Source of the DNA: a virus
Virus record (IMG/VR): IMGVR_UViG_3300027861_000148
Location: 1-29,119 of that record
Length of the DNA stretch: 29,119 nucleotides
Direction: 5' to 3' (one strand)
Within the stretch, counting starts at the first letter, position 1. Each line of letters begins with the position of its first letter. The notes under the pieces are model-generated. The model did no database searches and was not told the DNA's origin. It was given only the letters and a program-made list of their open reading frames with translations. Both the position numbers and the translations under genes were made by a program. This document shows positions 423 through 28,822 of the stretch, piece after piece.

Positions 423-574
423 TATTTCTTTTTACCTCCAAAGTTACTAGGTCCACCAGCTTTAGTACATCTTACGCCCCAGCCTGAAGCATAAGCACTA
501 GGCCAAACCTTAAATTTCTTTTTTGCCGCAGCTTTACAAGCACTACTTATCTTTCCGTATAGTGGTGATGCCAT
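422..574 (-). CDS. 50-aa basic protein with a KVWPSAYASG motif
   Basis: Reading the minus strand from the ATG at 574 gives a 50-residue protein: MASPLYGKISSACKAAAKKK, then the motif FKVWPSAYASGWGVRC, then a Gly/Lys-rich tail. The K-x-W-P-S-A-Y-A-S-G block followed by a Cys is one I recognise from small proteins of aquatic phages, often next to another Lys-rich mini-protein as here; no function is known to me. The start overlaps the last 32 bases of the 3012-aa gene in a different frame, and its stop shares bases with the next ATG (TAATG). The clear motif and the perfect coupling to the next gene argue that it is real despite its size. The upstream leader is A/G-rich (AAAGAAAG) without a canonical Shine-Dalgarno site. 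Confidence 0.8.
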   Translation of the reverse strand: MASPLYGKISSACKAAAKKKFKVWPSAYASGWGVRCTKAGGPSNFGGKKK

Positions 575-3500
575 CTTTCTTTTTATTTTGTAGTTCAATT
601 ATCTTTTTAACTCTAGCATCTTCATAACGCAATGCTTTAATTTGTTTTTTGTCAAGACCTAAATCTAACAACATTTGTACTTGATCAGATGTTTTAGTAT
701 CTTTTTTCATTGTATCAAACTCACGTTGTTTAATCTCTTCAGGTGTTGGATCTTTAGGCTTGTCCCAACCTCCATAATATGGTAAGCCAACATCATAAGT
801 ACCCCAACCTAAACCTAATGCAACCTTTTGCCAAGTCTCTGTTTGATTACTTAATAAACCTCTAATGTTGTTTGCTTTTTTAACAACACGATCAACCGGT
901 ACGTTTGTGAAAGCAGATATAATTTGAGCACCTGCTAAGTAAGCTGGGTTTTCAAGGCTAAAGCCTTTTTCTTTCATTTCTTTTCTATTCCAGCTAAAAC
1001 TTTTTAATCCGCCTACTAGTTTTCTATATTTAGAATTAAGTGGTGGTGAAAATCCTAGAGCTTCAACTGATGCAGCTTCATACTCAGGTGTTTTCTTACC
1101 GTGCTCATCGTATAGTTTAACTATCATATTTTTAAGAGCTGAAACCGCTGTACCTGCAATACCTAAACCTTTTAATTGTGAATCAATCATACCGTTTGCA
1201 ACTCTAGCTATTTTTTTATCTTTTAAAGCTTTTTTCTTAGCATCTTCTTCTTCGTCTTCGCTATCACCAAATCCTATAGCAAACAAAGCTTGCTGCAGCG
1301 CGTTAAATATTAAGTTCTGTACAAAACCGTAATAAGCTATTTTAGATACATGAGTTCTCCAGTCGCCGCGACCTGCAATAAGATCTTGTGCAGATCTTTT
1401 TTGTATTCTAGCATACTGCATCGGAGTATTTGCCCAAGCAAGTATCACACGACCAGCAGCGGATGCTTGTTGCATACTAATTTTAGACGGATCACTTGAC
1501 TGTTGACTTTCTTCAGCTAACGCTCTAAAGTCATCAAATGCTTTTTCTTCTGCAAGCTTTTGATCCATACCTTCTTTGATATACTTCTTTATTCTATTTC
1601 TATAGAATGTAGCACCACCTGAAGCAATAGCAAAACTATCAGCAAACCTTGTCATAACAAAACCTTTGCTAAGTAAGAAAGCAATAGCAGCTCTTGGTTT
1701 GTTTTTAGAATCTTTTACTGCATCTGCTATTTCAGATTCACTTACATTAATCTTAAGACCATTACGGCGTTGCACTAAATAATCAGAGTTCATAAGTGAC
1801 ATAAAGTCTTTCCAGTACTGAGGTTGGTTCGCAAACGCTTTTCCTGCAGCTACAATATTATTATCACCCCAATTTATAAAGTTTACAGCAGAGATGGTCT
1901 GTAGCAATGCAGATCTTGTGTTTAAGAACATTACAGCGCCAACAGAGTTGTTTAGCCAGTCGAATATCTTTTCTGTTACAGGGTTGCTTCCTATTGGTCT
2001 ATTAGTACCAGCTTTCATACGACGTATGCTATCTTCCATAGCTCTACGCCATCTTGTACCGTAAGCAGCTTCCATTTTATTTAAGTTCTCAGGTGAGAAT
2101 ATAATATCTAAGTTCTCTCTAAACTCTTGCTGAGCTTCTGCTCTAATGACCTTGTTTATACCACCAATAATATCTGTAGTTAAGTTACCACCTAACCAGT
2201 CTTTACCAGGTTCAGGATATAACTTACCTTTTTGTATTGATATTAATTGATCTGCAAACGCTTGTAATTTAGGATCGTTCTTAATAAAGGCATTTAGCTT
2301 TCTAATGTCTGCTTTTGATAATCCAGGTATTGACATACCTTGCTGCGTCCATATGTAAGTTCTAATAGCATGTTGATATGTAAAACCACCAATACCAGTT
2401 TCTTTTCTAAATGTTTTAGGCAAACCTGGAAACTGCTGCTTAAGTGCCATAAAGTCATTAGCTGCAGATATTTTAGCTTGTACAACAGTGTCTTCAGCTT
2501 TCATATACGGATCTAACAAATTTGTTTTAAGAAAAGCCATTTGAGCATCACCTTTTTTTCCTTTGCCTAGCATTTTGTACAATAGCCCTGTAAAGTCTTC
2601 TGCCGATGCAGGTATTAAGAAATTATATTTACCTTTGTTAGCACCGACTGTTTTAGCTTTTGCAGCTGAAAACTGCTTGTATGTTTCAATTCCAGAAGAA
2701 TCAAATATCATATCATTGACTATAGTGTCAAATGTTTGCTTTTTACTAGCTCTAGCTTGTTGCACTCTTGATTTAACATCTATTTGATCTAAAACTTCTT
2801 TAACAGCTTTAACGTTTTTACCAGCGTCATCTGCAAAGTAAAAGTCATTATAGCCTTCAGCTGCTTTACCAGCTATCCATCTACCTTTAGCCGCAGCTGT
2901 GCCATCGCCTAAACCTGTTATATTGCCTAAAGGTATATCAATACCCAGCGCTTTCATAAAAGCCTTTATAGGACCAGCCGCTGCTTGTGGTCTTGCTGTT
3001 AATATAAATAAATCTTCTGTACCACGAGTATCTGCTATTTTTTTAGCAACATTAAATAGTGGTCCTTTCTTGCCATCAATGACTTGTTCAAACTGACTAA
3101 AATCAAATGTAGCGCCTTGTGCTTCAAGATCTGCCGCTTGTTCTGCAAACTGTGTAGCATTTATTTCTCTAGTAGCACCAGGCGTTTCTTTTAAAACTTC
3201 TAATTTTTGTTGCTCGTTTAAGCTATCATAGCTTTGTTTATAGCTAGGTAAGTTTTCAAATTCTTTTTTAAATTTTCTTCTAGCCACAATATCTAGCATA
3301 TCTGTGTCAATTTGAGATATCGGCTTTATTACTATAACTTTACTATTAGATCTTGCTAGTGTATCGTCAAAATCAAATACTCTAATTTTTTTAACTGGCT
3401 TGTCTAATTTTCTACCTTCTGCTAAAGCTTTGTCAAGAGTGTTAAGTTCATTTACTACTTTAACTGTGTTAGCGTCTTGATCACCTTCAATTTTTAAACT

Positions 3501-6500
3501 ATTAGGAGCTAAGTTGTTTATTTTTTTAGATTGCCTAGACTTAGAAACTTCTGTTTCTAATTGAAGATCTAATAGTTTTCTAGCCTTAGCTCTTGTTACA
3601 GCATCGCTACCAGTTAATATACCAGCCTCTGTTAATATTATTTTATTTATTAACTCGCCTTGTAGTTGTACTACATTTGGATTTTGCCTTAAGTTTGAAG
3701 CAACCTCTACATTAAAATCTACAGCAACATTTTTACCAAATATTTCTAAGTTGTTAGGGTTCAAGCTAGACGGACTCCAATTACCATTAGAATCAACAGT
3801 GCCATAACCACTAAAATACCTAAGCATAGAGCTAGGCACAGCATCCCAGTCTGCATCTTTACCTGATTTTATAGCTTTGTTTAAAGCTTCTATTAAAATA
3901 GGGTGAGAAGTTCCTCCACTGTCTCTCCAAGTATTTCCATTAGTATCAACTAGATTACCTTTAACAACATCACTTTCATTTTTTAAAGCTATTTGCCAGT
4001 AGTTATCTTTAATCCACTCTTTGTATTTTTTTAAAGAATTTTTAGCAGCTGCAATTTTTTTCTTGTCACCAGATTTTTCTGCATTAACTATATTTCTATA
4101 TAATTGAAGTTTTGCTTTGGCGTGTTCTATTGCTTGAAAAACATGTTCATCTGTGACCTTACTTCTTTTACGAGTTTTACCGTCTTCTGTTATTACAGCT
4201 CCAGATTCAACGCCAGCGTTAGTAGCTTGATTTCTATTTTGATTAGCGTTTAAGTCGTAATGATACATAAAGTCAGTTAAAACAGCAAAAGCTTCTTCTG
4301 AAGTTTTAGCTACTTCAAGTTCTGCGTCTATTAATAAATCAACTCCTGCATTGTGAAGATCTAGCTTGCTAAGTCTTAATTTATATTTAGACCCGTCTTT
4401 TTGACCTAAAGCTTCTTTTGTTTGTTTTATTTGATCTTCATTAAAATCAGGTGTATTTTTTATTGCATCTTTTCTTATAGATTCTAATTCTAAAATTTCA
4501 CCTTTTGCAATTAAATCTTTAGCTTCTTGTTTTAATTTAGGATCTAATATTTTGTTAGCGTCTGTTATCATGTCAAAACCTCTTTTGACCAGACTAGAAA
4601 CTTTATTTCCAGATGTAAAATTAACCGCTTTGTTTAAAACTTCTATAGGAAAAATAGAACCAAAAACATCTACTAGTATTTTTCTTTTTAAAGACTTATC
4701 ATTTCTTACTTTTTCTAAAGCTTCCTGATTAGCAATTTGCTGTATTTCTTTAAGTCCAGATGTTTTAGGTTGTTTTTTAGCGCTAAATCTAGCGCTTGTT
4801 TTTGTTTTAGCTGGTTTTGGTTTTTTAGCTACAATAAAAGTATCATTTTCAAATCCAGACATACCACCTAGCTTGTCAGCCATAGCCTCGGCTAGTCTTT
4901 TATAAAGCCTAATTCTACTAGGTTCTTTAGCTGTAAATATAACTCCTTCTATTTCAGGATTATTTTTTAAATAATCTACAACTCCATTTATATTAACTGA
5001 AAACACTTCAAAAGCATTACCAGCTGCAGTTATGTCCATACTGTCTGTTTCATCTGCAAATTGTAAATGATAGAATCTTTCAGAGCTTGATATATCGTCA
5101 CCTTCAAAGTCTTTTTGTATACCTAGTTTTTTTGCTATATTATCAATGTCATCATAAGTTTGGCCTTCGTCAAACTCCATGAAAGCAGTTTCTTCTAATC
5201 TAGTAGTATATTTTTTTCCTTTAACTTCAAACGTGGTTTGAACATCTTCGTCAGTTTTTTTCCAATTTAAATCTTGACGTGTTTTTAAACTAAATCTAGC
5301 ACCTGTTCTTGTTCTAGCTACAGGATCTGGTACAGCTTGCTCAAATATTAAGTTTCTAAGAGATAAATTAGCTAAGCCTTTTAAAGCTTGAGCATCAGCA
5401 GATCTGTATATAGCATCTTCACCTTTTTTTTCTTTAGCTTCAAGATCTAATGCATCAATTATGTTTTTATAATCTCTTAAACCTTTTCTAGTATCTCTTA
5501 CGTATTTGTCTTTAGAGTTTTTAGTAAATAAAGCTTCTAATATTTTACCAGGTATTGATGTTGATTTGCCTTCTATGTTTGCAGATTCAGCTAGCATAGC
5601 AAAGTCGGCATCTGCATTTGCGTTTAACAATTGTTGTAAAGCCGTGACAGCACCTGACTCAACATCGCCTTTCATGATGTTTTGATTTTTCTTAGAAAAC
5701 CTATTGGCTTTTAAACCAGTAGCTTTTTCCATTAAAGCAGCAACCGCAGGTCCTATGTCTTTAATGTCTTTAAACTCTTTTATTTCACCCTTATAAAAGT
5801 TAGCAATGTCATCTGCAATAGCCTCTTCAAACAACGCGTCTACTTCAGCCTTTGTGCTAACACCTAAGTTACTTAATATCGTGCTAGGATACTTCCTAGA
5901 CGCCTTAGGAGTTGTTCTAGCTCTTGCTTTTGGCTTTGTAGTAGTTGTTTTACCACCAGTCGTTTTGCTTTCAATTTTTCTTTGAATGTTTTCGTCTGTA
6001 GTAGATTGAATTATACGTTCATATCTAGGATCATCTTTAAAAAACTCAAAAAGTCTAGCATCTAAAAGTTTGCCACCTGCTGTTGACGAATTTAAATAAC
6101 CCATTATACTATCATTTCTAGCAGGATCGTAACCTTTAAGCAAGCCTAGCATACCTCTTGATTCGTCATATAGAAAGTTTCTTATAACATCTTCTCTAGC
6201 AATAGCATCAGCATCAAATTTTAATCTACGATCTATTTCATTAAACATGGCTGGATCGCTTACTATTTCAAAAGCAGCTTCTGTTTTTGTTGTAGGATCA
6301 ACAAGTTTATCTTTAAAAGATTCTACTTTTTGATATATACGCTCTGATTGTCTAGCTTTAGCTTGTTTTCTTCTTCTAGCCACAGCTTTAGGATTTGCTA
6401 TATTTTCAAATCCTTCTATTGTTTCTGTTTTAACAACATCACCACCCTCTTCGGTAACAATATTTTCAATAAATTTTTCATTAGTTATATTGTTATTTTT

Positions 6501-9500
6501 TCCAAGTCTCTCAGTATTATATAACTGCCCGTCTTTATCTTTTAATTCTATTTTTCTACTACCATCTTTTGCGGTTGTAACTGTAATAATATTTTTATCT
6601 CCATTGTCATCTATTGTTTCGTAAGTTTCTTTTTTTATAGAATCAGTATCTTGAATGGCGAGTTCGTTGTTTGTGGTTTCAGTTACCTTTATAGTTCCAG
6701 TTTTTGCAGCTATATCCGCGCCTTTACTACTTTTAATTGCTTTATTGTATCCTTTAACAAAGTCTAAAGCACTTCTACCAGTTCTAAAGCTAATATTTAA
6801 TTTACCGCCACTAAATATACTTTTTAATGTTCTGCCAAAATCTACAAATTTGTCAATTAAAGTAGTGTTTTCTACTATTTGATCATTAGATAAACCTTCG
6901 CTAGTTAAAGTAAAAACTTCTTCGTAGTACTGCTCTTCGCTTATATCTCCGTCTCTAAACTGTTTATTAGCTTGATTAAGTCTATTTGCGACTACAGCAT
7001 CTAGTTCTATGCCATCACTATTTAATAAAGCTTCTAGCTTTTTACCAGCTTTTATTTTAGCGGCACTGTTATTTACAAATATTTTATCTAACAAAGCATG
7101 TAAAACTTCGTGCTGAGCTGTAGTTGCTATATTATCTTGTAAAGCAGAAACTTCGTTTAATATAACTTGAGTAGTTCCATCGCCCATTCTAGATATAAAA
7201 CCATAACTTTGGTCTTCGGCAGGTAATATATTTCCTTTTTCATCTCTATCTAAACCTACAACTTCACCTCCATTAGCTTCAATTGCTTCAACAGATGATA
7301 TAAGATCTTCTGTGCCTTTAACAATTTCAAGTCCAACACCTTCAAGACCTTCAGCGAAAGCTTCAGCGCCTTTAATGTTTTTTAAAGTTCGATCTTGCGT
7401 AACTAAACTGTTTAATTCTGCGTCTATTTCTTTAAGTCTAGCAGACTCTGCTTTTGTTAAACTAGAGTTATCAACTTCCTTTATTTTATTTTTAAGATTT
7501 TTTTGTTCTATTAACAGGTCAGCAAACTCTGTTTGATTAGTAGTAACCTCTAGGGCATTTAAAACATTAGAAGCACCTTGTACATTTCTAGCTTTTTCTT
7601 TTATAGAATTAGCTTGGGCTTCTGTTATATCACCAGCGCTTAATTGTTTATCTGCTCTAGTGTTGATAGCCTGCAAAGATCCTTTTACTTTTAAAAGATC
7701 CATTTGAACGGGTGTTATGCCTTGTATACCATCTCCTACATCCAAACCGTCAAAAGCCTCATTAATACTAACTAAATTATTTTTAGTTAAAATATTATCT
7801 ATTTTTCTATTAGTAATACCGCTTTTAACATTAGCAACAGCTTGAGATATGTTAACAGGCGAAGTATATAAACCACCACCACCAACTCCAAGTAAGAAAG
7901 CATCTGGAACTCCTTCAAAAGGATCTTTACCTTTTATTAAGTTTTGAGTTATTTGAGTTGCAACTTCTTCGATACCTTCACCTAATGTACCAGCTATAGC
8001 ACCATATTTTTTTATAGCTGTTTCGTACATCTCTATTAACCCTTTTTTAAATACTTGAATACCTTTTTCTTTACCTTCTTTAGCTATTATTGTTCTATAG
8101 CTTCTACCAATTGAACCTTTACCAACAAAACCAAAAACTGTTTCAGCAGCTCCAAGAGCTAGTGAGTTTTTTATAACATTTAGATCAGACATTGCTGGAT
8201 TTTCTTCTCTCATTTCCCTCATTTCGGGACCAGCGAAAGCAATAGTTCCAGAAGTTATGAACGACCCAGCTCTCATATAAGCTCCACCTAGCATCATAGA
8301 TATAGAAACAGGGGCACTTTCAGCTAAGCCAGACGCTATTTGTTTAAATCCATCTAAATATCTACCAGCTGCAAAATTTTTAGCAACACCTTTTATTTTG
8401 TAATTAACTCTATCGTAATCTTCTTGTGTAGCTTTTAATTTATTACCTTCTTCTATGTAGTAATCTAATATGGGGTTAGATTTTAAATTAGCGGCAACGA
8501 CACCATGTCCGAGATACAATGGTTTATCACCACCAGCTAAAAAGCTTGTTATATCATACATGGTAGAAGGAACACTTGCTATCATTTCTCCTAAACTTGT
8601 ACTACCTTTTTGAAGGTCTATATTTAGCTTTGATAAAAAGCCCATTTCAGATATTATTTTATCAGCCTCTTTTTGAGCTTTAACATCTTTATCTATTTCT
8701 TTTTTTAAGCTTTCAACTAGTTTTTTTCTTTTTTCTAGTAAACTATCAAAATATTTTTTACCTTTTTTGCTTTTTATTACAGTTTGATTTTCTACTGTTG
8801 TTTTTTCATTTTTAAATTCACCAGTTTCTGGATCTGGATATTGAAATAAACTTTTTTCTTTTTTAGTTACTTTTTCAGTTTCAAAATTGTTTAAAGCAGA
8901 ATCAATTTCACCTATTTTAATTAATAAGTTGTCAGCGCCTATAGTTTCTTCAACATTATCAAAAGTTGGAAGGCCAGAAACCATTTCTATTTCAGCCTGT
9001 TGACCTTGCGCTTGATCTTCGTATTTTTTAAGATTTTTTAGTTGATCCTTGTCAAGATGATTTAATTTTTCAGCTATTTTAGCAGAAGCATAAGTATCTT
9101 CTTGAAGAATAAAATCTTTATCATCTTTAGATTTATAGTAATAATCTAATTGACCTTCTGGATTTACTTCAAATTTATATTGATAAGGATCATCTTCAGG
9201 ATTATAAACATCGCTTTGTTTGACTACTGTTTCATACTTTTTTTTGTATTTTCTATAATCATCAGCCGCTTTACCTCTAGCTACAATATTTTCAGCATAT
9301 TCAAAAAAGTTGTCAGTTTCAACTGGCTCAGGCTCTTGAGATACTAATTCTCCATCTACAGAATCTGAAAGATCGGACCCTGTGTTGTTCGTCTGCTCTA
9401 CAACCGGATCCGGCGTTATAGAGCTGTCTTGGTTTCCCACTTCAGGAGTCTGTTCATCGCTTTTAACTTCAACTTCTGCCTCTTCATCAGGCGTAAAGTT

Positions 9501-9581
9501 TTTAAGAATTTCTATAATTTGCTCAACTTTCAAAGGAGGAAACTGAGACTGAAGTTCTATAGTTTTTTCTTCTAATGTCAT
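543..9581 (-). CDS. Giant multidomain virion protein (probable ejected protein) with zincin-type and HAD phosphatase motifs
   Basis: A 3012-residue protein, the largest here. Visible parts: an acidic, Pro/Glu-rich N-terminus (1-100); Lys-rich helices (100-310); hydrophobic/Gly-rich segments (415-455, 525-575); helical linkers (600-760); HEVLH at 824-828, the zinc-metallopeptidase signature; a Lys/Arg-rich linker near 1060-1230; RFSxK motifs at 1294, 1429 and 1598; a complete HAD phosphatase set (DFDDT at 2070-2074, ILTAR ending near 2196, Lys2232, FADDAGKN at 2249-2256); and a long helical C-terminal third with hydrophobic patches near 2545-2570 and 2750-2772. Such giant proteins at the end of podovirus virion operons are commonly packaged inside the head and injected (compare T7 gp16 and the N4 virion RNA polymerase); I see no polymerase motifs. 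The leader is A/T only. The role is inferred from size, hydrophobic segments and neighbours; the catalytic motifs are seen directly. Confidence 0.8.
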   Translation of the reverse strand: MTLEEKTIELQSQFPPLKVEQIIEILKNFTPDEEAEVEVKSDEQTPEVGNQDSSITPDPVVEQTNNTGSDLSDSVDGELVSQEPEPVETDNFFEYAENIVARGKAADDYRKYKKKYETVVKQSDVYNPEDDPYQYKFEVNPEGQLDYYYKSKDDKDFILQEDTYASAKIAEKLNHLDKDQLKNLKKYEDQAQGQQAEIEMVSGLPTFDNVEETIGADNLLIKIGEIDSALNNFETEKVTKKEKSLFQYPDPETGEFKNEKTTVENQTVIKSKKGKKYFDSLLEKRKKLVESLKKEIDKDVKAQKEADKIISEMGFLSKLNIDLQKGSTSLGEMIASVPSTMYDITSFLAGGDKPLYLGHGVVAANLKSNPILDYYIEEGNKLKATQEDYDRVNYKIKGVAKNFAAGRYLDGFKQIASGLAESAPVSISMMLGGAYMRAGSFITSGTIAFAGPEMREMREENPAMSDLNVIKNSLALGAAETVFGFVGKGSIGRSYRTIIAKEGKEKGIQVFKKGLIEMYETAIKKYGAIAGTLGEGIEEVATQITQNLIKGKDPFEGVPDAFLLGVGGGGLYTSPVNISQAVANVKSGITNRKIDNILTKNNLVSINEAFDGLDVGDGIQGITPVQMDLLKVKGSLQAINTRADKQLSAGDITEAQANSIKEKARNVQGASNVLNALEVTTNQTEFADLLIEQKNLKNKIKEVDNSSLTKAESARLKEIDAELNSLVTQDRTLKNIKGAEAFAEGLEGVGLEIVKGTEDLISSVEAIEANGGEVVGLDRDEKGNILPAEDQSYGFISRMGDGTTQVILNEVSALQDNIATTAQHEVLHALLDKIFVNNSAAKIKAGKKLEALLNSDGIELDAVVANRLNQANKQFRDGDISEEQYYEEVFTLTSEGLSNDQIVENTTLIDKFVDFGRTLKSIFSGGKLNISFRTGRSALDFVKGYNKAIKSSKGADIAAKTGTIKVTETTNNELAIQDTDSIKKETYETIDDNGDKNIITVTTAKDGSRKIELKDKDGQLYNTERLGKNNNITNEKFIENIVTEEGGDVVKTETIEGFENIANPKAVARRRKQAKARQSERIYQKVESFKDKLVDPTTKTEAAFEIVSDPAMFNEIDRRLKFDADAIAREDVIRNFLYDESRGMLGLLKGYDPARNDSIMGYLNSSTAGGKLLDARLFEFFKDDPRYERIIQSTTDENIQRKIESKTTGGKTTTTKPKARARTTPKASRKYPSTILSNLGVSTKAEVDALFEEAIADDIANFYKGEIKEFKDIKDIGPAVAALMEKATGLKANRFSKKNQNIMKGDVESGAVTALQQLLNANADADFAMLAESANIEGKSTSIPGKILEALFTKNSKDKYVRDTRKGLRDYKNIIDALDLEAKEKKGEDAIYRSADAQALKGLANLSLRNLIFEQAVPDPVARTRTGARFSLKTRQDLNWKKTDEDVQTTFEVKGKKYTTRLEETAFMEFDEGQTYDDIDNIAKKLGIQKDFEGDDISSSERFYHLQFADETDSMDITAAGNAFEVFSVNINGVVDYLKNNPEIEGVIFTAKEPSRIRLYKRLAEAMADKLGGMSGFENDTFIVAKKPKPAKTKTSARFSAKKQPKTSGLKEIQQIANQEALEKVRNDKSLKRKILVDVFGSIFPIEVLNKAVNFTSGNKVSSLVKRGFDMITDANKILDPKLKQEAKDLIAKGEILELESIRKDAIKNTPDFNEDQIKQTKEALGQKDGSKYKLRLSKLDLHNAGVDLLIDAELEVAKTSEEAFAVLTDFMYHYDLNANQNRNQATNAGVESGAVITEDGKTRKRSKVTDEHVFQAIEHAKAKLQLYRNIVNAEKSGDKKKIAAAKNSLKKYKEWIKDNYWQIALKNESDVVKGNLVDTNGNTWRDSGGTSHPILIEALNKAIKSGKDADWDAVPSSMLRYFSGYGTVDSNGNWSPSSLNPNNLEIFGKNVAVDFNVEVASNLRQNPNVVQLQGELINKIILTEAGILTGSDAVTRAKARKLLDLQLETEVSKSRQSKKINNLAPNSLKIEGDQDANTVKVVNELNTLDKALAEGRKLDKPVKKIRVFDFDDTLARSNSKVIVIKPISQIDTDMLDIVARRKFKKEFENLPSYKQSYDSLNEQQKLEVLKETPGATREINATQFAEQAADLEAQGATFDFSQFEQVIDGKKGPLFNVAKKIADTRGTEDLFILTARPQAAAGPIKAFMKALGIDIPLGNITGLGDGTAAAKGRWIAGKAAEGYNDFYFADDAGKNVKAVKEVLDQIDVKSRVQQARASKKQTFDTIVNDMIFDSSGIETYKQFSAAKAKTVGANKGKYNFLIPASAEDFTGLLYKMLGKGKKGDAQMAFLKTNLLDPYMKAEDTVVQAKISAANDFMALKQQFPGLPKTFRKETGIGGFTYQHAIRTYIWTQQGMSIPGLSKADIRKLNAFIKNDPKLQAFADQLISIQKGKLYPEPGKDWLGGNLTTDIIGGINKVIRAEAQQEFRENLDIIFSPENLNKMEAAYGTRWRRAMEDSIRRMKAGTNRPIGSNPVTEKIFDWLNNSVGAVMFLNTRSALLQTISAVNFINWGDNNIVAAGKAFANQPQYWKDFMSLMNSDYLVQRRNGLKINVSESEIADAVKDSKNKPRAAIAFLLSKGFVMTRFADSFAIASGGATFYRNRIKKYIKEGMDQKLAEEKAFDDFRALAEESQQSSDPSKISMQQASAAGRVILAWANTPMQYARIQKRSAQDLIAGRGDWRTHVSKIAYYGFVQNLIFNALQQALFAIGFGDSEDEEEDAKKKALKDKKIARVANGMIDSQLKGLGIAGTAVSALKNMIVKLYDEHGKKTPEYEAASVEALGFSPPLNSKYRKLVGGLKSFSWNRKEMKEKGFSLENPAYLAGAQIISAFTNVPVDRVVKKANNIRGLLSNQTETWQKVALGLGWGTYDVGLPYYGGWDKPKDPTPEEIKQREFDTMKKDTKTSDQVQMLLDLGLDKKQIKALRYEDARVKKIIELQNKKKDGITTIRKDK

Positions 9582-9586
9582 TTAAT

Positions 9587-10687
9587 TTAAGTTAATTTGT
9601 TATCTTGTAAAAACTTTTGAGCTTTAGCTTTTTTAGCTTCTGCTAAATCAAATACAGCGGCGTCTGCCTCTACTGTAGGTAGCTTGTTTGTAGTAAATTG
9701 CTTTAAGTAATTATTCATAAAATAATCTCCGTATTTGCTTTCAAATAATTCTTTATTTTTTTGAGACAAAGGTAATACTTCTTTGTAATCCCAAGCAACA
9801 CTGCCTGCGTTTGCATTTTGTGCCATTTGATCATCTTCTTCAACACTTGATCCTTGACCAATAAAAACGTTCCAAGCAGCTACAACGCTTTGTTCTTGTT
9901 GTAACAAGCCTGCAACTTCAGCATTTACAAATGGCTGTGCTTTTCTTTTAATTTTATCTAAATCAAATTTAAGTACGTTTCTACCTTTACCACCGCCTAT
10001 GTCTATTATTTCATAGTCAAAAGATCCGTCTACATTTTTCATAACAAACTCTTCAGACAAAGAAGCTTCTGGTAGTAAGTTACCTTGTTCATCTGCAGAT
10101 CCCTCTGCTAAAACACCGCTATCAACTAATAGTTTTAGCATGTCTGCATTTACATCTGGAGTTTCAACTACAAGGCTAGTGTTTGATTCTAGTAAAGCAC
10201 TAAGCGTATTGTTGTTAATTACTAAAGGCTTTTCAAACAAAGGTCCTTCAAATACTATTTCCTGAGAACCATCTTGCATAAGATTTAAATAAACATTATA
10301 TCCTTCTGTCTTAGAAAAACCAGGTTTGTTAGTCATAATGCAATTAGCGACCATAAAAGAGTAATCGTTGTTAACATCATAGTAATTATCCTCTGTTACA
10401 GAAAGCTCGTCTACGACCTGTTGTAAGAACTCTATGGACTTCTGAGGAGCTTCATCTAGTCTCTTTACTTGCTCATGTTCATAATTACAGCTTTCATCTA
10501 AACATTTACCTGATTGTATAGCCATTTTTAGTTTAGCATACATCTTACCTGTATTGGCGTAAGCATTATCTAGTATCTTAAAAGAAGCGTCAATGTTAGC
10601 TGCAACATAATCTTCGTTGTAAGCTAGCGCGTTACTTTTATTAGCTTGTTGTATAGACAGATTATATGTTATGTTTTTATTCTCCAT
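9587..10687 (-). CDS. 366-aa acidic protein of the ejection block, function unknown
   Basis: A soluble-looking acidic protein lying 4 bases after the stop of the 220-aa gene and 5 bases before the giant gene. The N-terminal part is helical and polar (SIQQANKSNALAYNEDYVAA region), with a C-x(4)-C pair near residue 62 (GKCLDESCNYEH). The middle is a mix of short strands with many Asp/Glu, and the C-terminal part is helical and Lys-rich. I recognise no catalytic motif and no membrane segment. By position, between a gp14-like protein and a giant putative ejection protein, it may be another internal virion (cargo) protein or a chaperone for its neighbour. Alternatives include a minor tail component. 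The start is supported by the tight spacing and an A/T-rich leader (GATAATAAA). Confidence 0.6.
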   Translation of the reverse strand: MENKNITYNLSIQQANKSNALAYNEDYVAANIDASFKILDNAYANTGKMYAKLKMAIQSGKCLDESCNYEHEQVKRLDEAPQKSIEFLQQVVDELSVTEDNYYDVNNDYSFMVANCIMTNKPGFSKTEGYNVYLNLMQDGSQEIVFEGPLFEKPLVINNNTLSALLESNTSLVVETPDVNADMLKLLVDSGVLAEGSADEQGNLLPEASLSEEFVMKNVDGSFDYEIIDIGGGKGRNVLKFDLDKIKRKAQPFVNAEVAGLLQQEQSVVAAWNVFIGQGSSVEEDDQMAQNANAGSVAWDYKEVLPLSQKNKELFESKYGDYFMNNYLKQFTTNKLPTVEADAAVFDLAEAKKAKAQKFLQDNKLT

Positions 10688-10691
10688 TTTA

Positions 10692-11354
10692 TTATCGGTT
10701 ATTAAAATCTATACCGCCAAATAAACTAGCCGCGGCTCCAATGCCACCGGTCAAAGCAGCTGTGCTGTCTCTACTAGCAGAAGCGGCTTGACCTCTTAAT
10801 GCTGATATTTGATTAGAAACTCTATCTAACTGTTGTTGTTCTCTTTGTTCTGTCATGCCAAATACAAATTGTCTACCAGCTACGTCTGCTTGTTGTAGCC
10901 TTTGTTGTTCAGACATTTTTTGTTGCTGTAGTGTAGCTTCACCAGCTGCTCTTTGTCTTTCATTAGCTACTTCTTGACTTTCAATACTAGCTGCTACACC
11001 TTTTTTAGCCCGCAATGCGGCTTGAGCTAAAGCCGTGGCACCACCTGCTGAAGCACCCGTAGCTCTTATAGTGTCTAAGGTGTTAGCTAAAGCGATATCA
11101 GACTCTTCTATTTGCATTTCAGCCGCTTGAGTAGCTACGCTTAAATTAGCAAAAGGATTACTAAGCATTGAACTTAAATCTTGAATTCCTACATAAGGAT
11201 TAATTATTTCTTGACGATTTTTTTCTAGTTCAGTTAATTTTGTTTCTAGCTTAGCAGCCTTTCTACGAGCTCTTTTAGCAGCTCTTCTAGCCTTATTAGA
11301 CCCAAAAATACCACCAGCTAAACTAGCTACGCCACCTATTATAGCTCCTACCAT
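10692..11354 (-). CDS. Internal virion protein, T7 gp14-like layout
   Basis: A 220-aa protein with a hydrophobic Gly/Ala N-terminus (MVGAIIGGVASLAGGIFG), then a strongly basic helix (KARRAAKRARRKAAK), an amphipathic Ala/Gln/Glu-rich coiled-coil middle, and a hydrophobic C-terminal stretch (AALTGGIGAAASLFGG). This order, with an N-terminal membrane-inserting helix, a long helical body and a small-residue C-terminal helix, matches the small ejected inner-virion proteins of podoviruses such as T7 gp14 (196 aa), which enter the outer membrane and start the DNA-ejection conduit. The gene sits between the nozzle genes and the giant protein, as expected for an ejection set. The leader is A/T only. 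The assignment rests on layout and position; no strict sequence signature exists for the group. Confidence 0.65.
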   Translation of the reverse strand: MVGAIIGGVASLAGGIFGSNKARRAAKRARRKAAKLETKLTELEKNRQEIINPYVGIQDLSSMLSNPFANLSVATQAAEMQIEESDIALANTLDTIRATGASAGGATALAQAALRAKKGVAASIESQEVANERQRAAGEATLQQQKMSEQQRLQQADVAGRQFVFGMTEQREQQQLDRVSNQISALRGQAASASRDSTAALTGGIGAAASLFGGIDFNNR

Positions 11355-11372
11355 TTTTTTATATTTTTATTA

Positions 11373-13043
11373 TTAATATCCATTATTAAAATTATATTCA
11401 CTACCAACTTGAAATAACTGTTTTTCGCCTCCAAAATCAGTAGTAGAATCTGTTGACATTGTAACTACTGAGTAAAAACCTTTAATACCAGTTATGTCAT
11501 TTCCAAAATGAATTTCACCCTCTACCGGTGTACTATTATTAACTAAATTAGCATAATATTTATTTTCTTTACGATTAAAACCTGCTCTAAAAATATTACC
11601 AGTAAGAGGAGTAGGGAAAACATTGCCAAAAGAATCATAACTACCTTCTTCGTAACTTAAAACATTATTTGTAAAATCATTTGAAAAAGAATAAACACTA
11701 TTAATTTCATCTTCACCTGTTGAGTCTGAAATAAAAGAATCAACCTGCCAACCGTTATAACCTTCGTACTCTATATTTTTGAAAGTTTTAGATGTGCTAG
11801 GATTTTCGTTTAAGATAAATTTTATACTTGAATTGTAATTTATTCCGTAAAATTTGTTTCTTGCTAAATCACTAAAATTAAGTTGCGTATTGTCGTTTAA
11901 TATTTGAGCTTTATTAACTGTTATTGTATTACCGTTAATGCTTAATATAAATGTTCCAGGTTTTATTGTAGAACCGTAAACAATGTCACCTAGTCTTAAA
12001 TCACCTTGAATATTATCAAGAGTAATTAATTGACTAGTCTGAACAGGACCATTTGTCAATGCTTGAGTAATTTTGTTTTCATTATAATTATGAAGCCAAA
12101 GTCTGCCATTTTCCGTTGTGTATGTTTGGTTTCTAATTGATAATATTTGATCTGGTTTGAAGCTAAAAAAGCTAGTCCAACCTTTGACCCTTTCGTCCCA
12201 AGCTAAAGTAGTAGGTTTGTTATTATTGTCATTTAACGTTATATTTTTTCTAGTATTAACAAAATATTGACTTGTATACACATCCCAGCCACCTAATATT
12301 CTTCCTGGAGCTGAAGATAATTTTATTCTGTTTAATTCATCTCTAAAATAATCTTTCATACCAGCAGAAGATATTTCATCTATACCACTTCGAGAAAGTC
12401 TTAATATAACATTTTTGTTTGAATCTGAAAAATATTTATTGTATCCATAAACAGCAAAGCTTTCTGGATTTTTAGATATTCCATATTCACCAGCATAAGG
12501 TTGAATAGCACCTATAACTAAGTTAGAAGAAGTAACAGTGCCACCGCCTTCTGCTGAATAAATAGCGTCTTTATCAATTAAAGCTCTACTTACCTTAAGC
12601 TCTTGAAATATATTTAAATTAGTATCTTCAGCATAAAGTTTCTGTATAGATCCATTAACAGGGTCTAAACTTTTAGTTATTTCCTCTCCTACGCTAAAAA
12701 CATTAGTATTGTTTATACCTGTTCTAGAATTAAATATACCAGAGTATATAAGTGTGTTAACTCTTGGTGAAGCATTTGGCTCGTCTTCTACTAAATAAGC
12801 CTTAGCACCGTAATCTGTAGATGTATTATTATAACCACCTCTAATTCTAGCTTCTTCAATAGACCAATTAGTTAAATCGTCATCATCAACAGACAAAGGA
12901 AAAGTTCTAGGATAACCACCAATTTCTTGAGGTATACCTCTTGAGCCATTCCACATAGCTGTTCCATCGCTTGAATTAAAGCCGCTATTACTCTTTTTTA
13001 GAATAAAGGTATTAAAATATTTTACTTCTATTATAGCCGCCAT
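11373..13043 (-). CDS. Tail nozzle-type structural protein (second half of the nozzle/muzzle pair)
   Basis: A 556-aa beta-rich protein with no membrane segment. It contains blocks I associate with the propeller/nozzle part of podovirus tail stabilisation proteins: LYAEDTNLNIFQE (136-148), KVSRALIDKDAIYSAEGG (150-167), GEYGISKNPESF (185-196), AWDERVKGWTSF (281-292) and NGRLWLHN (312-319). The repeated DER-KGW, G-x-LW-x-H style is typical of a beta-propeller that lines the tail channel. It also carries one copy (337-392) of the beta module found four times in the upstream 1668-aa protein, which supports a common assembly. The two genes are 34 bases apart in different frames. My reading is that one nozzle function is shared by two polypeptides; a separate minor tail protein remains possible. 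Confidence 0.65.
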   Translation of the reverse strand: MAAIIEVKYFNTFILKKSNSGFNSSDGTAMWNGSRGIPQEIGGYPRTFPLSVDDDDLTNWSIEEARIRGGYNNTSTDYGAKAYLVEDEPNASPRVNTLIYSGIFNSRTGINNTNVFSVGEEITKSLDPVNGSIQKLYAEDTNLNIFQELKVSRALIDKDAIYSAEGGGTVTSSNLVIGAIQPYAGEYGISKNPESFAVYGYNKYFSDSNKNVILRLSRSGIDEISSAGMKDYFRDELNRIKLSSAPGRILGGWDVYTSQYFVNTRKNITLNDNNNKPTTLAWDERVKGWTSFFSFKPDQILSIRNQTYTTENGRLWLHNYNENKITQALTNGPVQTSQLITLDNIQGDLRLGDIVYGSTIKPGTFILSINGNTITVNKAQILNDNTQLNFSDLARNKFYGINYNSSIKFILNENPSTSKTFKNIEYEGYNGWQVDSFISDSTGEDEINSVYSFSNDFTNNVLSYEEGSYDSFGNVFPTPLTGNIFRAGFNRKENKYYANLVNNSTPVEGEIHFGNDITGIKGFYSVVTMSTDSTTDFGGEKQLFQVGSEYNFNNGY

Positions 13044-13077
13044 ATTATATTATCACTTATTTTTTTTTGTTTTAACT

Positions 13078-16000
13078 CTACGTTCCTGGTGTGCAATTTT
13101 CTTGACAAGAGCTTATAGTTCCAGAGCCGACTTGACCAGATGACACCATTTGCTGCCCGAATGAAAAAGTAGTAAATGGGTTATAAGGTGTAACGTCTGT
13201 TTGTTCTATAGGATAGCTTTCAAAATCACAGTTTCTATTAATTACTGCTGTTTTTTGAGGAAAAGCGTTTGTAACCTGTGCACACAGCTCTTGATATGTC
13301 GCTGGTTGGTTTGTGTTAACTGGGGAATAGTAAGGGAATTGCCCAGCAATCCTCATTCTAGGAAATACAGGAGTTGTAAAAACATCACTGGCTGCATTTG
13401 GCATTGTCACCAGCCATCTACCACTTGAAAAACTAATAACATCTCCAGCGCTTAAACCATGAGATTCAAATGTTGTTATTATAGCATCTGTTCCAAAATC
13501 ATTACTAAAAGGTGGTCCAGCATTTGTGTAATCTACAGAACTTACTCTTACTGTAGGATTATCGTTAGAATCTAATATAATAGAGTTTGGTGCAGTAGAA
13601 AAACCGCCAGAAGTTTGGTAAATTTCATCTCCATTAGCGGGGTTAGAAGTATTTCCGTCTGTTGGTTGCACGAATATAGGTCCTCTTGGAACTCCAGCTA
13701 TAACGTTAGGATCAAAAATACCTGATGTTGCTCCATTTGGAAAAAAAGCATTGTCACCCGACAAGTTTTCTGTTCTAAAAATATTTCCATCTAAAACTTC
13801 GGCTACAGTACAAGTACCATCTTTATAAACATCACCACCAACAGCCAGGTCTTTAGGCGTTATAAAATTCCAACTCCAAGCTTTTTCAACATTAATTCTA
13901 TTTACTCTAACTATTGCTCTGCAGTAAGGCTGCTGAGTTTCTAGAGAATCAAAACTTCCGTTAGCATCTGTCACTTTCAACCAAATAGCCCAATCTTGAA
14001 AATCTTCAAAAACTAAGCCAGTACCTCCAGCGGTAGTAGTAAAAGAAAAAGCCGGTGAAGCTGGGTCGGGTTTTTCTAATGTGCAAAAACTAACGCCTGA
14101 GTTTATTGAATCGCTAGTGGCTATAGTGGTATTTAAAGTAAAAGGTCCAGTTTGTCCAATATTTTCAATAGTATAGCCTGTCACAGGATCTGTATATACT
14201 TGATCAAAAACGTTTTGCTCACTAAAAGAGCCTCCAAATTCTTGCAATTGACTTGTACGCAGTTGCGCTACTATTTCAAATTGAAGTTCCTGACCTGCTA
14301 AAAATCTTTGTCCATAAACAGCACCATCTTCGTAAAATCTAGAACCATTTTCTGCTTCTATTATATTTATAGCTATAGTTTCTGTTTGTGATATGTCTAT
14401 ATTTGGCGGAGTATTACCATTTTCGCCATCATAACCAGGCGTGCTAGGACAACTTATAAAAGTAGGTATTTTATTTTTAAGCTCTATATTTTCTATAAAA
14501 TATGTTACAGATTGTTGTACCGTATTTGTTACTTTAATATTTACAACAAAGTTTCTTATAGCGGGATCTTCTAAGAAAACAAATAATTCGTTTGTTTTAA
14601 TTTGATAAAAACCTGGTGTAGTTGTTTCTTCTAAAACAAAAGCAGTACTTCTATCAGCTCCTGTTTGGTCTATAATGCTAGCTTCTCCTGGTACTTGTGA
14701 TTCTAATGTTATTTCAAAATCATTAGGGTCAACATCTGTTCCAAAAATATCTTGAACAGTAAAACCATTACCATTTATTATGGAAGATCCTATGGCTAAA
14801 TCTTCAAAAAACAAAGCATCGTTAAAATCTATTATTTCAATAGCACCTAATGTATCACTCAATATAGATGTATTTAAATCAGATATTAAACCGCTAGAAG
14901 AAGTTTCCCAAAATATATCTAGCAAACTTTCTACTGGTTCTGTTTCATAAACAGCTAAATACTGTATTCCAACTGGATTGGTTTGCGGGTTGTCAAAAAA
15001 CGTAAGCGTAGTTCCTGTTTCAAATATACTTTGTCCTTGTGCTGATCCAACAGAAATAGGACTTCCAGGAGCTGGATTAGCCAGCTTTACAGTAGGAAGC
15101 GATGCGACTGAAACAACTGTACCTTCTGCTAAACCTCCGCCCCTAACAGACATGCCACTTACTATAGTCCCTTGTATGTCAGCCAATGTAACTGTATCTT
15201 CCAGTACTACCGGTGGCGTCGTGCCAGTTTGAGCAGGAGTTTTAGTAGTATCAACAATACCGCTTCCAGTAACAAGATTAGTGTTGTTTATTTGACCTAT
15301 TTTATTTTCAGTAGTTATTCTAGCTATTAAAGGATTTGAAGTATAAGAGTAAAATTGTGGAAAAAAATCTGGTCTTTCGGAAACCAAAGGGCTAAAATCA
15401 AATAAATCATTTAGAGTGGATATAACAGAAACAGTATCTGGTTTTATTCCTGGGTAATAAGGTCTATTTTCAGAAAAATTCAAAACAGTAGGATCAACAT
15501 GGTTTTCTACTCTTCCAAAAATCCCAACTGAACTTCTAAATTGTTTTTGCTGTGGACCAACTTCATTTAAGTCTCTTGGTATCTTATTTATATTATCATT
15601 TATAAGAACAGTATGTGATGTTCTACCTAACTCTAGTAAAGCGTCTTTAGGATAAGCAGCCATTACGCCAGGCAGGTAAACATTGTAGTATTCTTGCTCT
15701 GTTTGTTTAACAACTATCTTCCAAGAGTACCAACCTAAAGGATTATATTTTGAGCTATTTTCATCTCCATTATACAATCCAGGCCAACCAATAGAAGTAT
15801 TTTTATTGCTAGGTCCAATGGGACTGTTGAAAGAAACTTTCAAGGAATCACCTGGCCAAGTAGATTGAACTATAGAGCTTGAATTATAAGCAGAGTATAT
15901 GGTAGACCCCTTAAATTCCACGCCTCTAGTGGTAACAGTGTTTAAACTATTTGAAAGTATAACGCTTGATTGTCTACCATATCTATCAGAAAGAACCACA

Positions 16001-21213: not shown

Positions 21214-21265
21214 GGGTAACAGTTACCCCTGAAATTACATCAGGGGTAAACATTACCTGTGTAAT
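21214..21265 (-). promoter_or_regulatory. Hairpin cluster in the transcript just after the capsid gene
   Basis: Three inverted repeats fill the 78-base gap. A perfect 10-bp stem TTACCCCTGA / TCAGGGGTAA (21223-21232 and 21240-21249, 7-base loop) is flanked downstream by the near-palindrome GGGTAACTGTTACCC (21214-21228), which uses the same TTACCC arm and so excludes the first hairpin, and upstream by a 5-bp stem at 21252-21265. None is followed by a long T tract. It could be a weak terminator or attenuator, an mRNA-stabilising 3' end for the abundant capsid message, a processing site or a protein-binding palindrome. Confidence 0.6.
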
Positions 21266-22689
21266 TACACTCCTTGGAATAATACAAAGTTGTTAGCAGC
21301 TTGTGTTACTAAACATCTTTCAGATAGGAAGTTTACTTCCATAGCATCTAAAGTAGATGTAAAAGCTCCACCAGCAGAACCAGTCAACCAAGACTTCATG
21401 CGACGATCATCACTTTGTGAAGCTCTGTATCGTACGTGCAAGAAAGGTCTACGGATGTTAGTTCCTAGTACTTGATCGTATACAGTTGAAGTTCCAGCAG
21501 GTATTAATACACCTTCGATAGAATTTACACCTTGTACACCTCCACGAGTAGAAGCATCGTTCAAGTATTTCCAGTCTGTTTTATAGAAATCATAAGAACC
21601 TCTACGGAAACCGCTAAAACCTAAGTTCAATGCCATTTCTTCTGAGTTTTCAAATAATCCAAAAGCAGTACCACCAGCAGCTCCGCCAGAGATTGCAGCC
21701 AACATGTCGTCAAAATCCAAAGCAGTTTGTCTTTGTAAGAATAACATGTTTTCTTCAATAGCTCCTTGAGTATCTAAGTTTTTAAGAATTGCATCAAATT
21801 CGTCTAATCCGTTAGCAGCAGTAAATCCTACTTCTACGTTTCCACGAGATTTAATAGCAGCAAATAAACCTTCAGATCCTGGTACAAGAGCGGCGTTACC
21901 ACCTTGATTGTACTCACTTTCAATCATTGCCATTTCTAGGTAATCTTCAAAACGTAAACGAGTTTCAGATTCAGCTTTTAAATACCATAGGTATCCAGAA
22001 GCACCGTCTTCAGTAGCAACTTCTACCCAGCCAATTTGAGCCATGTCAGAACCAGATACTACGTATTGGTTTCTTAGGATAATTGGTGAGTTAGAAAATT
22101 GAGTTAATTGAGGTTCTACAGAAATTCTAGCATCAGCACCAGTTGTATTAGATCCTTTTCCATAAGAAGATCCGTATACAAATACTTTAATAGCACCGTT
22201 TGTAAATCCAGCAAATCCATTACCATCAAAAGTTGTAACTGTAATTGTGCCGTCTTGAGCAGCAGTTGTTGCTTGTGTAGCAGTTACAATACCTTTTTGC
22301 TCATCACCTGTGGCTGTATCTAAAATAACAACTGTGTCATTTACAGAAATAACATTTTGCACGCCAGGAAATCCACCTAGAGGAGCAACAGTTATAACGC
22401 CAGCAGCCTGCGTACAATCATCGTAAGATATATGTAATCTATTTTGTTCAGACCAAATTACTTGATCAGATGTCATTGGCATTTCAGCGCCAACCATTCG
22501 CAAGAATCCAGATAACGTTCTGTTTCCATAACGCTCTACTTCTTGTTCGTAAATTTCAGGTAGGTACTGTTGAGCGAAAGTATCTGTATCGCCAGCGCCA
22601 GCGCCACCGTTGAATTGTAAGTAGTTTGAATTCAAAAGTTCTTGTTTTGAACTTGGGATCAAACTTCCAAATTGAGGAGTTAAACTCAT
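21265..22689 (-). CDS. Major capsid protein (HK97-fold type, assigned by context and pattern)
   Basis: A 474-aa protein without Lys-rich tails or signal peptide. The N-terminal arm (MSLTPQFGSLIPSSKQELLN) is followed by QQYLPEIYEQEVERYGNRTL and then SGFLRMVGAEMPMTSDQVIW, a pattern I associate with capsid proteins of crAss-like and related Bacteroidetes podoviruses. A helical segment near 230-270 (ESETRLRFEDYLEMAMIESE) would be the spine-helix region, and the C-terminal part is strand-rich (RPFLHVRYRASQSDDRRMKS). Length, codon use richer in C-ending codons than the neighbours, the scaffold-like gene 15 bases upstream and the portal before that all fit the major head subunit. Its leader is AAAAACTTAATATT with no Shine-Dalgarno. 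The fold itself cannot be proven from sequence alone. Confidence 0.85.
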   Translation of the reverse strand: MSLTPQFGSLIPSSKQELLNSNYLQFNGGAGAGDTDTFAQQYLPEIYEQEVERYGNRTLSGFLRMVGAEMPMTSDQVIWSEQNRLHISYDDCTQAAGVITVAPLGGFPGVQNVISVNDTVVILDTATGDEQKGIVTATQATTAAQDGTITVTTFDGNGFAGFTNGAIKVFVYGSSYGKGSNTTGADARISVEPQLTQFSNSPIILRNQYVVSGSDMAQIGWVEVATEDGASGYLWYLKAESETRLRFEDYLEMAMIESEYNQGGNAALVPGSEGLFAAIKSRGNVEVGFTAANGLDEFDAILKNLDTQGAIEENMLFLQRQTALDFDDMLAAISGGAAGGTAFGLFENSEEMALNLGFSGFRRGSYDFYKTDWKYLNDASTRGGVQGVNSIEGVLIPAGTSTVYDQVLGTNIRRPFLHVRYRASQSDDRRMKSWLTGSAGGAFTSTLDAMEVNFLSERCLVTQAANNFVLFQGV

Positions 22690-28544: not shown

Positions 28545-28822
28545 TATTTCTTAGATCTTCCTTCAGCAAACCCTTTAAAAGTTCTTTCTTCTTTAACTTC
28601 TTTAGGTTTGTCGTTTAGCATATTCTCTTCTTCTTCAATGCGGTTAAGTATTTCAAAGGCATCGAATATAGCTAGCTTTTTAGTGGCGGCTGCGTTTTTA
28701 AGTCTGTCAGCTGATATATCATCATCTGAATCAACAATAGCTTCTTTAGCTACTTTGATTAACTCCTCAACTGCTCGCTGCCCAGCTTGGATTATATTCT
28801 TCTTCGTTTCCTTGGTGTTCAT
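28544..28822 (-). CDS. Small helical protein in the small-terminase position
   Basis: A 92-aa, all-helical, charged protein with an Ala/Lys/Glu-rich pattern: NIIQAGQRAVEELIKVAKEA, an acidic DSDDDISADRLKN, then AAATKKLAIFDAFEILNRIE and a basic tail ending EGRSKK. It precedes the large terminase and shares the TAATG junction with it, and its first 56 bases overlap the end of the upstream GroES-like gene in another frame. Small terminase subunits are short, helical, oligomeric DNA-recognition proteins encoded just before the large subunit, so that role is plausible from size and position. I see no helix-turn-helix I would call with certainty, and an unrelated packaging accessory is possible. Confidence 0.5.
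   Translation of the reverse strand: MNTKETKKNIIQAGQRAVEELIKVAKEAIVDSDDDISADRLKNAAATKKLAIFDAFEILNRIEEEENMLNDKPKEVKEERTFKGFAEGRSKK

Follow-up and report, generated by a model that had tools for sequence, protein, structure and literature searches.

A giant cysteine-free protein with zincin-like and HAD domains, a probable ejected polyvalent protein of a marine crAss-related phage

The DNA analysed here (the window) is a stretch of 29,119 bases from the IMG/VR virus record IMGVR_UViG_3300027861_000148. It contains an open reading frame (ORF) for a giant protein of 3012 amino acids (aa), which we take, with a probability of about 0.7, to be a virion-packed polyvalent ejection protein, a delivery chassis, of a marine and probably flavobacterial phage. 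The giant belongs to a known kind of protein; a near-constant HAD unit ahead of the C-terminal domain and the exchange of cassettes between zincin and HAD are new features. The reading is carried by the architecture of the chain, by two conserved active sites, by the exchange of cassettes, by the depletion of cysteine and by synteny; that the giant is packaged and ejected, that it acts as protease and phosphatase, and what it acts on are putative.

The ORF runs in a single frame from an ATG. It lies on the minus strand (543-9581); the plus-strand translation is riddled with stops. An earlier note had described it without naming a strand, and much of that description holds: the N-terminus is acidic, HEVLH is the sole HExxH of the chain, the HAD motif set is complete, and only helices follow the HAD domain in the AlphaFold2 model of residues 2031-3012. 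The hydrophobic segments were its weakest claim, as only two 19-residue windows exceed 1.2 on the Kyte-Doolittle scale (1635-1653 and 2753-2771) and neither is a clear transmembrane helix.

There are 57 related loci in IMG/VR, of which 55 have an ORF longer than 1900 aa (the long relatives); these are not independent and include near-duplicates, for example L003/L004, L030/L031, L020/L022 and L054/L058. Most relatives are aligned by BLASTP with residues ~2031-2931, and far fewer across the N-terminal two thirds. Among 50,697 phage records, tblastn with residues 195-3012 found no match, and with residues 2031-3012 only a doubtful one, to Tenacibaculum phage Gundel_1 (E 0.1). When parts of 22 relatives were scanned with Pfam, the only matches were two weak ones, each in a single member.

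The HAD domain and the helical C-terminal domain are together the best-conserved part of the giant. The HAD motifs are FDFDDT (2069-2074), LTAR (2194-2197), K2232 and DD (2251-2252). Motif I is present in 52 of the 55 long relatives, and motifs I-IV (DxD, T/S, K, DD) are complete in all 49 sequences picked for motif I (the window protein and 48 relatives). With E values up to 1 allowed in Pfam, DUF2608, which we take to be a member of the HAD clan, was matched in 30 of 34 family members (best 1.7e-5) and HAD in nine (best 0.002); so lax a scan also brings in unrelated families, such as TusA (6/34). The model of residues 2031-3012 has a predicted local distance difference test score (pLDDT) of 72.4 and a predicted template modelling score (pTM) of 0.57, and its HAD part reaches a pLDDT of 73-88 in blocks. 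Comparison of this model by VIA-align gave 24 rows with Z 8.0-10.5 over model residues ~15-241, most of them HAD-fold proteins judging by their titles. The best is 4xru_D of Pnkp1/Rnl/Hen1 (Z 10.5, root mean square deviation (rmsd) 2.5, 119 residues, 17% identity), followed by rows at Z 9.6 (tied by the rule of the tool), 9.5, 9.4, 9.4 and 9.2. Foldseek against PDB returned 1nnl with a probability of 0.95 but an E value of 0.42, and neither the HAD profile nor the core profile had a credible match among PDB sequences. In one locus (L034) a P-loop kinase is inserted within the HAD domain directly after motif I; it matches AAA_33 (3.1e-13), Zeta_toxin (4.4e-13) and the polynucleotide kinase family phrog_505 (1.4e-8).

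The helical part found no credible relative in PDB, where Foldseek returned no chain at E <= 0.001 for the model of residues 2031-3012; the VIA-align comparison hardly tested this part. In BFVD, the same kind of search found 57 viral proteins at E <= 1e-3 for the C-terminal model. Four of these are sequence relatives (28-40% identity); among the best 50 of the 57, most of the others show 10-15% identity and many are nameless. Eight of these best 50 bear names with 'polyval' (large polyvalent protein associated domain, PolyVal ART, ART-PolyVal-like), names that are annotation and were reached with a query that contained the HAD domain as well.

From the composition of the giant, which has 13 histidines, 0.004 HExxH motifs are expected by chance and one is observed. 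The motif occurs exactly once in each of 54 of the 55 long relatives, for which composition predicts 0.46 over all together. The conservation of HExxH and of HAD motif I therefore excludes chance. The surroundings of HExxH are scarcely alignable among the relatives, although the motif itself is kept. In an alignment of 55 sequences (the window protein and 54 relatives), all selected for carrying HExxH, E888, 64 residues downstream, is conserved in 54, and the next-best positions outside the motif in 44. Taken as a whole, residues 401-1600 are poorly modelled by AlphaFold (pLDDT 53.9, pTM 0.37), but the pLDDT is 75-90 in blocks of ten over residues ~751-900, where strands are predicted to be followed by a helix with HEVLH and then a helix with E888. 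Model and conservation together thus give an HEXXH helix, a Glu in the next helix and a three-stranded sheet, in agreement with the metallopeptidase core of polyvalent proteins as outlined in PMC5512222. The family zincin profile also finds gp18 of the Elemovirus phages at E 2e-12. Most VIA-align rows for the N-terminal model fit a single helical stretch (279-335) and were set aside as uninformative. HExxH motifs are found elsewhere too: the RNA polymerase (RNAP)-associated protein g065 of phage phi14:2 (L066:8-4273) has one and g070 (L066:19371-21152) has two, and many virion proteins of crAss phages may contain zincins.

The stretch between the zincin and HAD domains differs in content among close relatives. 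Compared in 60-residue bins, the window protein and that of L002 are 58-95% identical over residues 661-960, 83-98% over 1081-1440 and 66-98% over 1621-2340. Despite this high flanking identity, L002 lacks residues 1434-1596, a cassette of 163 aa. Two copies of an imperfect 30-bp repeat (26 of 30 identical), coding for ARTRTGARFS and AKTKTSARFS, flank the cassette, and L002 has one repeat copy at the join. In L007, which is 93-100% identical to the window protein over residues 121-300 and 481-960 and 88-96% over 1201-1380, a segment of 468 aa replaces residues 1434-2041. Nothing in the window protein matches this segment significantly (best E 0.35), whereas L005 carries a segment 88.9% identical to it. 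Domain exchange among related members, a feature of polyvalent proteins, is seen here. The cassette resembles DUF6934 below the threshold (3.4e-4); the copy in L041 lies above the cut-off (2.6e-8), and those in L036 and L043 are weak. L041 has two cassette-like stretches between the HAD and C-terminal domains (10823-12034), with DUF6934 matched once.

Two candidate processing sites were rejected. The RFS motif brackets the 163-aa cassette in the window giant, but R[FY]S is missing from 27 of 36 non-redundant N-terminal parts, which speaks against a general zincin cleavage site in an 'RFS' linker. The ORF is broken near residue ~2340 in L007, L050 and L054, as if by natural gene fission, but the reading goes on in another frame, and no processing site is therefore proposed there. 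The L042 giant is likewise broken into several ORFs.

The giant has no cysteine. The other 13 window ORFs tested contain 30 in 6,408 residues, a rate at which about 14 would be expected in the giant. Among the long relatives, 44 of 55 are cysteine-free, and all together have 33 cysteines in 159,980 residues, compared with 867 in 117,720 residues of 225 other ORFs of the same loci, which were called mechanically and some of which may be spurious. The last proteins of the corresponding block are also cysteine-free in phi38:1 (gp099-101), phi13:2 (gp124-127) and Elemovirus (gp18-20). N4-type virion RNA polymerases lack cysteine as well, possibly in connection with passage through tail and periplasm, according to the parts of PMC2784036 and PMC3715699 that bear on it; no paper extending this absence to the present phages was found among those that literature searches listed.

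Packaging and ejection of the giant are supported indirectly, by analogy of position and by the absence of cysteine. The giant is the last gene of a head-tail-ejection block and occupies the same slot as gp101 of phi40:1, for which GenBank notes give gp091-093, gp095 and gp097-gp101 as annotated from tandem mass spectrometry (MS/MS) proteomics; gp099, gp100 and gp101 are the last three genes of the corresponding block. The 220-aa protein of the window block has a homolog in phi38:1 gp099, and the gp101 proteins of phi38:1 and phi40:1 are 99.7% identical. The arrangement recurs in the family: among 56 loci with more than 1.5 kb of upstream sequence, a homolog of the 220-aa block protein lies 1.06-2.03 kb upstream of the giant in 45, and 11 give no match. 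For phi-crAss001, partial unfolding of the cargo proteins during passage through the tail has been proposed (PMC10172136).

The combination of domains, which the earlier note could not name, is in keeping with the polyvalent proteins known from phages and from conjugative elements, in which zincins are commonly combined with other effector domains (Iyer et al. 2017, main text of PMC5512222). As in these proteins, a very long multidomain chain with exchangeable domains stands in a structural-gene context, here with portal and terminase; several unrelated effector domains (zincin, HAD and the sub-threshold DUF6934-like cassette) share one ORF; the zincin has HEXXH and a Glu in the next helix; and the C-terminal domain is helical and resembles in fold other proteins, a number of which are annotated polyvalent. 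The giant differs in its near-constant HAD: the words 'phosphatase' and 'haloacid' do not occur in the main text of PMC5512222, nor does 'crAss' in the text available, and no paper on a constant HAD unit was found among the titles and abstract openings of the literature retrieved.

The comparison with T7 and N4 made in the earlier note is apt for functional analogues, but the nearest relatives found are flavobacterial phages. Like the giant, the N4-type virion RNA polymerase has ~3000-3500 residues, no cysteine, a domain with HExxH and, at the C-terminal end, a large helical domain, and it is packaged and ejected, which in the giant is only a proposal (portions of PMC12633501, PMC2784036 and PMC3715699). 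Unlike it, the giant has no RNA polymerase domain that we could find, and ~1370 residues separate its HExxH domain from the C-terminal helical part, which in N4 follows immediately. The giant, virion-packed cargo proteins of phi-crAss001 (gp45, gp46, gp47, gp49 and gp50) and of phi14:2 (g065-g067) are likewise encoded near tail and muzzle genes, and g065 shares a single HExxH with the giant. However, phi-crAss001 (gp47, gp49 and gp50) and phi14:2 (g065 and g066) have their RNA polymerase subunits or associated proteins spread over several chains, whereas the giant is one chain with no detectable polymerase (relevant parts of PMC10172136). A parallel in position is gp18 (3694 aa) of the Elemovirus phages of Flavobacterium sp. 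BAL314, with the same slot, no cysteine, a related zincin and a helical stretch; unlike the giant, it has DUF3293, no HAD motif that could be found and no significant match to the HAD-plus-C-terminal profile. Residues 419-593 are the only part of the giant that BLASTP aligns with it, and are helices of low confidence in the AlphaFold model.

Several observations weigh against an ejected polyvalent protein. The whole giant has no credible match in Pfam, PHROG, NCBIfam or PADLOC. HAD motif I is missing in three of the 55 long relatives, and L052 (4304-11617), the sole long relative without HExxH, reads IEELFH in a similar stretch. The zincin resembles solved folds weakly: the lethal factor rows reach Z <=6.1 with rmsd >=4.7 and align with chain residues ~58-262, presumably not the catalytic domain of that protein. 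Cysteine occurs in the MW202828 giant (1), the 366-aa partner in the window (3), phi14:2 g065-g067 (1-2) and nine of 45 proteins sitting between the 220-aa homolog and the giant; conversely, scaffold-like proteins and some small virion proteins are cysteine-free, and the reading is slightly weakened by such proteins outside the ejection block. The gp101 proteins of phi38:1 and phi40:1 are tied to the giant by position alone, with no BLASTP match, HExxH or HAD motif. No virion proteomics was found for the giant or a close relative, and Elemovirus gp18 is labelled 'structural protein' with no basis stated.

As an ejected polyvalent protein, the giant would be built of two constant parts and a variable one. 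HAD and the C-terminal domain would form a constant part that probably docks the chain or threads it through portal and tail; the zincin would be the second and, once inside the cell, would most likely cleave the giant itself into functional pieces, or else a host protein; and the stretch between them would hold exchangeable cassettes. Lacking cysteine, the chain could be unfolded, pass through the periplasm and fold again with no risk of incorrect disulfides. That the enzymes act on host targets at once, as had been supposed, is only one option; the authors of the polyvalent-protein study propose self-processing of the polyprotein by its zincin (main text of PMC5512222). A more specific model, offered here as a tentative one, is a cysteine-free injected polyprotein with a fixed chassis, made up of the zincin and of HAD joined to the helical C-terminal domain, and between these a slot into which recombination brings new cassettes, at least once between short repeats in linker DNA. 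The zincin would free the cassettes in the host, and HAD would heal or remove phosphate marks of host defence at entry.

Virion-carried RNA repair would refine rather than exclude the ejected polyvalent protein: HAD would be a Pnkp-like 3'-phosphatase, joined in some relatives by a 5'-kinase, and would heal defence-cut tRNAs at entry. This is tempting but unproven, and we consider it unlikely. T4 pseT with rnlA provides a precedent (by annotation), the top fold row for HAD is Pnkp1/Rnl/Hen1, and the L034 kinase matches a polynucleotide kinase family; but that row is tied with the second and closely followed by others, and the kinase fits Zeta_toxin better. A credible kinase Walker A motif is found in one locus only, and zeta-toxin-like kinases are already part of the polyvalent repertoire (main text of PMC5512222). 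The profile comparison of HAD with T4 pseT covers just 23 columns round motif I with a probability of 29 (10 columns of motif I and 7.9 in a control comparison with an Elemovirus HAD hydrolase), and ligase signals are weak (T4_Rnl1_C at 0.0022 in one member; RNA ligase phrog_8238 at 3.9e-4 in the L034 kinase stretch). Proteases are common in head assembly, and the giant, lying in the late structural block, might instead be a non-ejected assembly protein that remains in the tail or is left behind in the infected cell, with the zincin as a head or tail maturation protease. The depletion of cysteine, the MS/MS annotation at the same slot of phi40:1, the fold kinship of the C-terminal domain with proteins annotated polyvalent, and a cassette-like middle region unlike that of a maturation protease make this improbable.

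That the giant is a cryptic virion RNA polymerase of a novel type, taking the place of the crAss-type enzyme, appears very improbable. Its block position is comparable to that of the giant RNAP proteins of phi14:2. The phi14:2 RNAP query matches none of 12 records of this and neighbouring clades (nine linear IMG/VR records of unstated completeness, one partial genome, and the complete MW202828 and phi38:1), yet finds matches in 145 phage records, with an identity of 22-23% in some of them, and a crAss-type virion RNA polymerase is likely absent. However, neither Pfam, PHROG and NCBIfam nor the fold-search rows shown revealed a polymerase domain in the giant, which is weak evidence, as the models are partial and cover residues 401-1600, with a middle largely of low confidence, and 2031-3012. 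Two further markers were discarded: the PF00940 record search matched none of its controls and is hence worthless, and the pattern D.DGD misses even the known RNAP g066 of phi14:2, so that its absence from the giant is meaningless.

If the giant is indeed an ejected polyvalent protein, phages of marine Bacteroidetes deliver enzymes that are ready for use and exchangeable into the cell along with their DNA, and a protein that is probably injected contains a HAD phosphatase in nearly all family members. The 55 long relatives would form a comparative system that resolves the gain and loss of cassettes down to single bases, and cysteine depletion would be a testable composition hint for spotting ejected proteins. 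Isolates of the neighbouring genera Elemovirus and Callevirus are already cultured on laboratory hosts.

Table 1. Features of the window (29,119 bases, IMG/VR virus record), with positions, strand and basis of assignment.
Feature	Position	Strand	Basis
Giant protein, 3012 aa, proposed ejected polyvalent protein	543..9581	-	Single-frame ORF from ATG; 0 Cys
Acidic N-terminus, residues 1-100	9282..9581	-	Net charge -22
Ala/Gly-rich stretch, residues 419-593	7803..8327	-	BLASTP to Elemovirus gp18, 27.5%, E 7.7e-4
Zincin-like metallopeptidase domain, residues 749-900	6882..7337	-	AlphaFold model; family profile
HEVLH putative active site, residues 824-828	7098..7112	-	Conservation
E888, proposed third zinc ligand, helix after HExxH	6918..6920	-	54/55 aligned sequences
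Variable region, residues 1434-2041	3459..5282	-	Unrelated segment in L005, L007
163-aa cassette, residues 1434-1596, weakly DUF6934-like	4794..5282	-	Exactly absent from L002
30-bp repeat copy, cassette N-terminal side	5290..5319	-	26/30 identical to other copy
30-bp repeat copy, cassette C-terminal edge	4783..4812	-	26/30 identical to other copy
HAD phosphatase domain, residues 2063-2270	2772..3395	-	Motifs, Pfam HAD-type matches in family members, fold matches
Conserved helical C-terminal domain, residues 2271-2931	789..2771	-	Alignment, AlphaFold model, BFVD fold matches
366-aa ejection-block partner, 3 Cys	9587..10687	-	Position
220-aa Cys-free ejection-block protein	10692..11354	-	BLASTP phi38:1 gp099, 31.6%, E 1.7e-8
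Muzzle protein, C-terminal part, crAss-type	11373..13043	-	Pfam crAss_MUZ_C E 3.7e-11; phrog_14478
Muzzle protein, N-terminal part	13078..18084	-	phrog_14478
Probable major capsid protein	21265..22689	-	phrog_13704 virion structural protein E 6.5e-90
Portal protein	23946..26333	-	phrog_6547
Terminase large subunit	26334..28544	-	phrog_6681; 62% to MW202828

The window is probably a fragment, because an ORF runs off its right edge and it holds little besides the structural block. This block lies on the minus strand in the order terminase large subunit, portal, scaffold-like protein, probable major capsid protein and three smaller proteins of 272, 330 and 405 aa, the last two of which match virion PHROGs; it continues with two muzzle ORFs, the 220-aa and 366-aa proteins, the giant and a 92-aa protein. 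The probable major capsid protein owes its name to its position and is 50% identical to the structural protein UOF82499.1 of MW202828. The crAss_MUZ_C match lies above the Pfam cut-off (43.7 vs 27 bits).

The terminase is 62% identical to that of phage MW202828 (Manatee Spring) and 44% to those of the Elemovirus phages. The 87 phage records that it matches are MW202828 itself and phages of Flavobacterium (68), Cellulophaga (15), Tenacibaculum (2) and Maribacter (1), from which we infer a flavobacterial host. Nine contigs of metagenome-assembled genomes (MAGs) in GTDB carry the core of the giant, four of them labelled Bacteroidetes of various groups. The other five (L067, L068, L069, L072 and L073), labelled Woesearchaeota, Caldiserica or Maricaulis, are probably phage contigs placed in wrong bins. 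The phage would be a marine one with crAss-like tail parts, a distant relative of gut crAss phages whose nearest named relatives infect Flavobacteriia. The NCBI lineages of Elemovirus, Pervagoviridae (phi38:1) and Pachyviridae (phi13:2) do not include Crassvirales, and that of phi14:2 does. As the nearest named relatives stand outside Crassvirales, we call the window crAss-related, judging by the muzzle domain and gene order, and not a crassvirus.

The muzzle protein of the window is divided into two ORFs (1668 and 556 aa; 11373-18084), each matching different parts of phrog_14478; a single muzzle ORF covers both parts in Elemovirus, phi38:1, L024 and L057. In the 330-aa virion protein (19313-20305), a stretch at residues ~149-231 matches baseplate and other virion PHROGs. 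The basic 92-aa protein (144-422), with two cysteines and no Pfam match, lies downstream of the giant, and homologs with 61-100% identity are found downstream of the giant in 18 of the 57 loci. At the opposite end of the window, near the terminase, a GroES-like ORF (phrog_13932; 28767-29117) is cut by the window edge; GroES adjoins the terminase in Elemovirus and phi38:1 as well.

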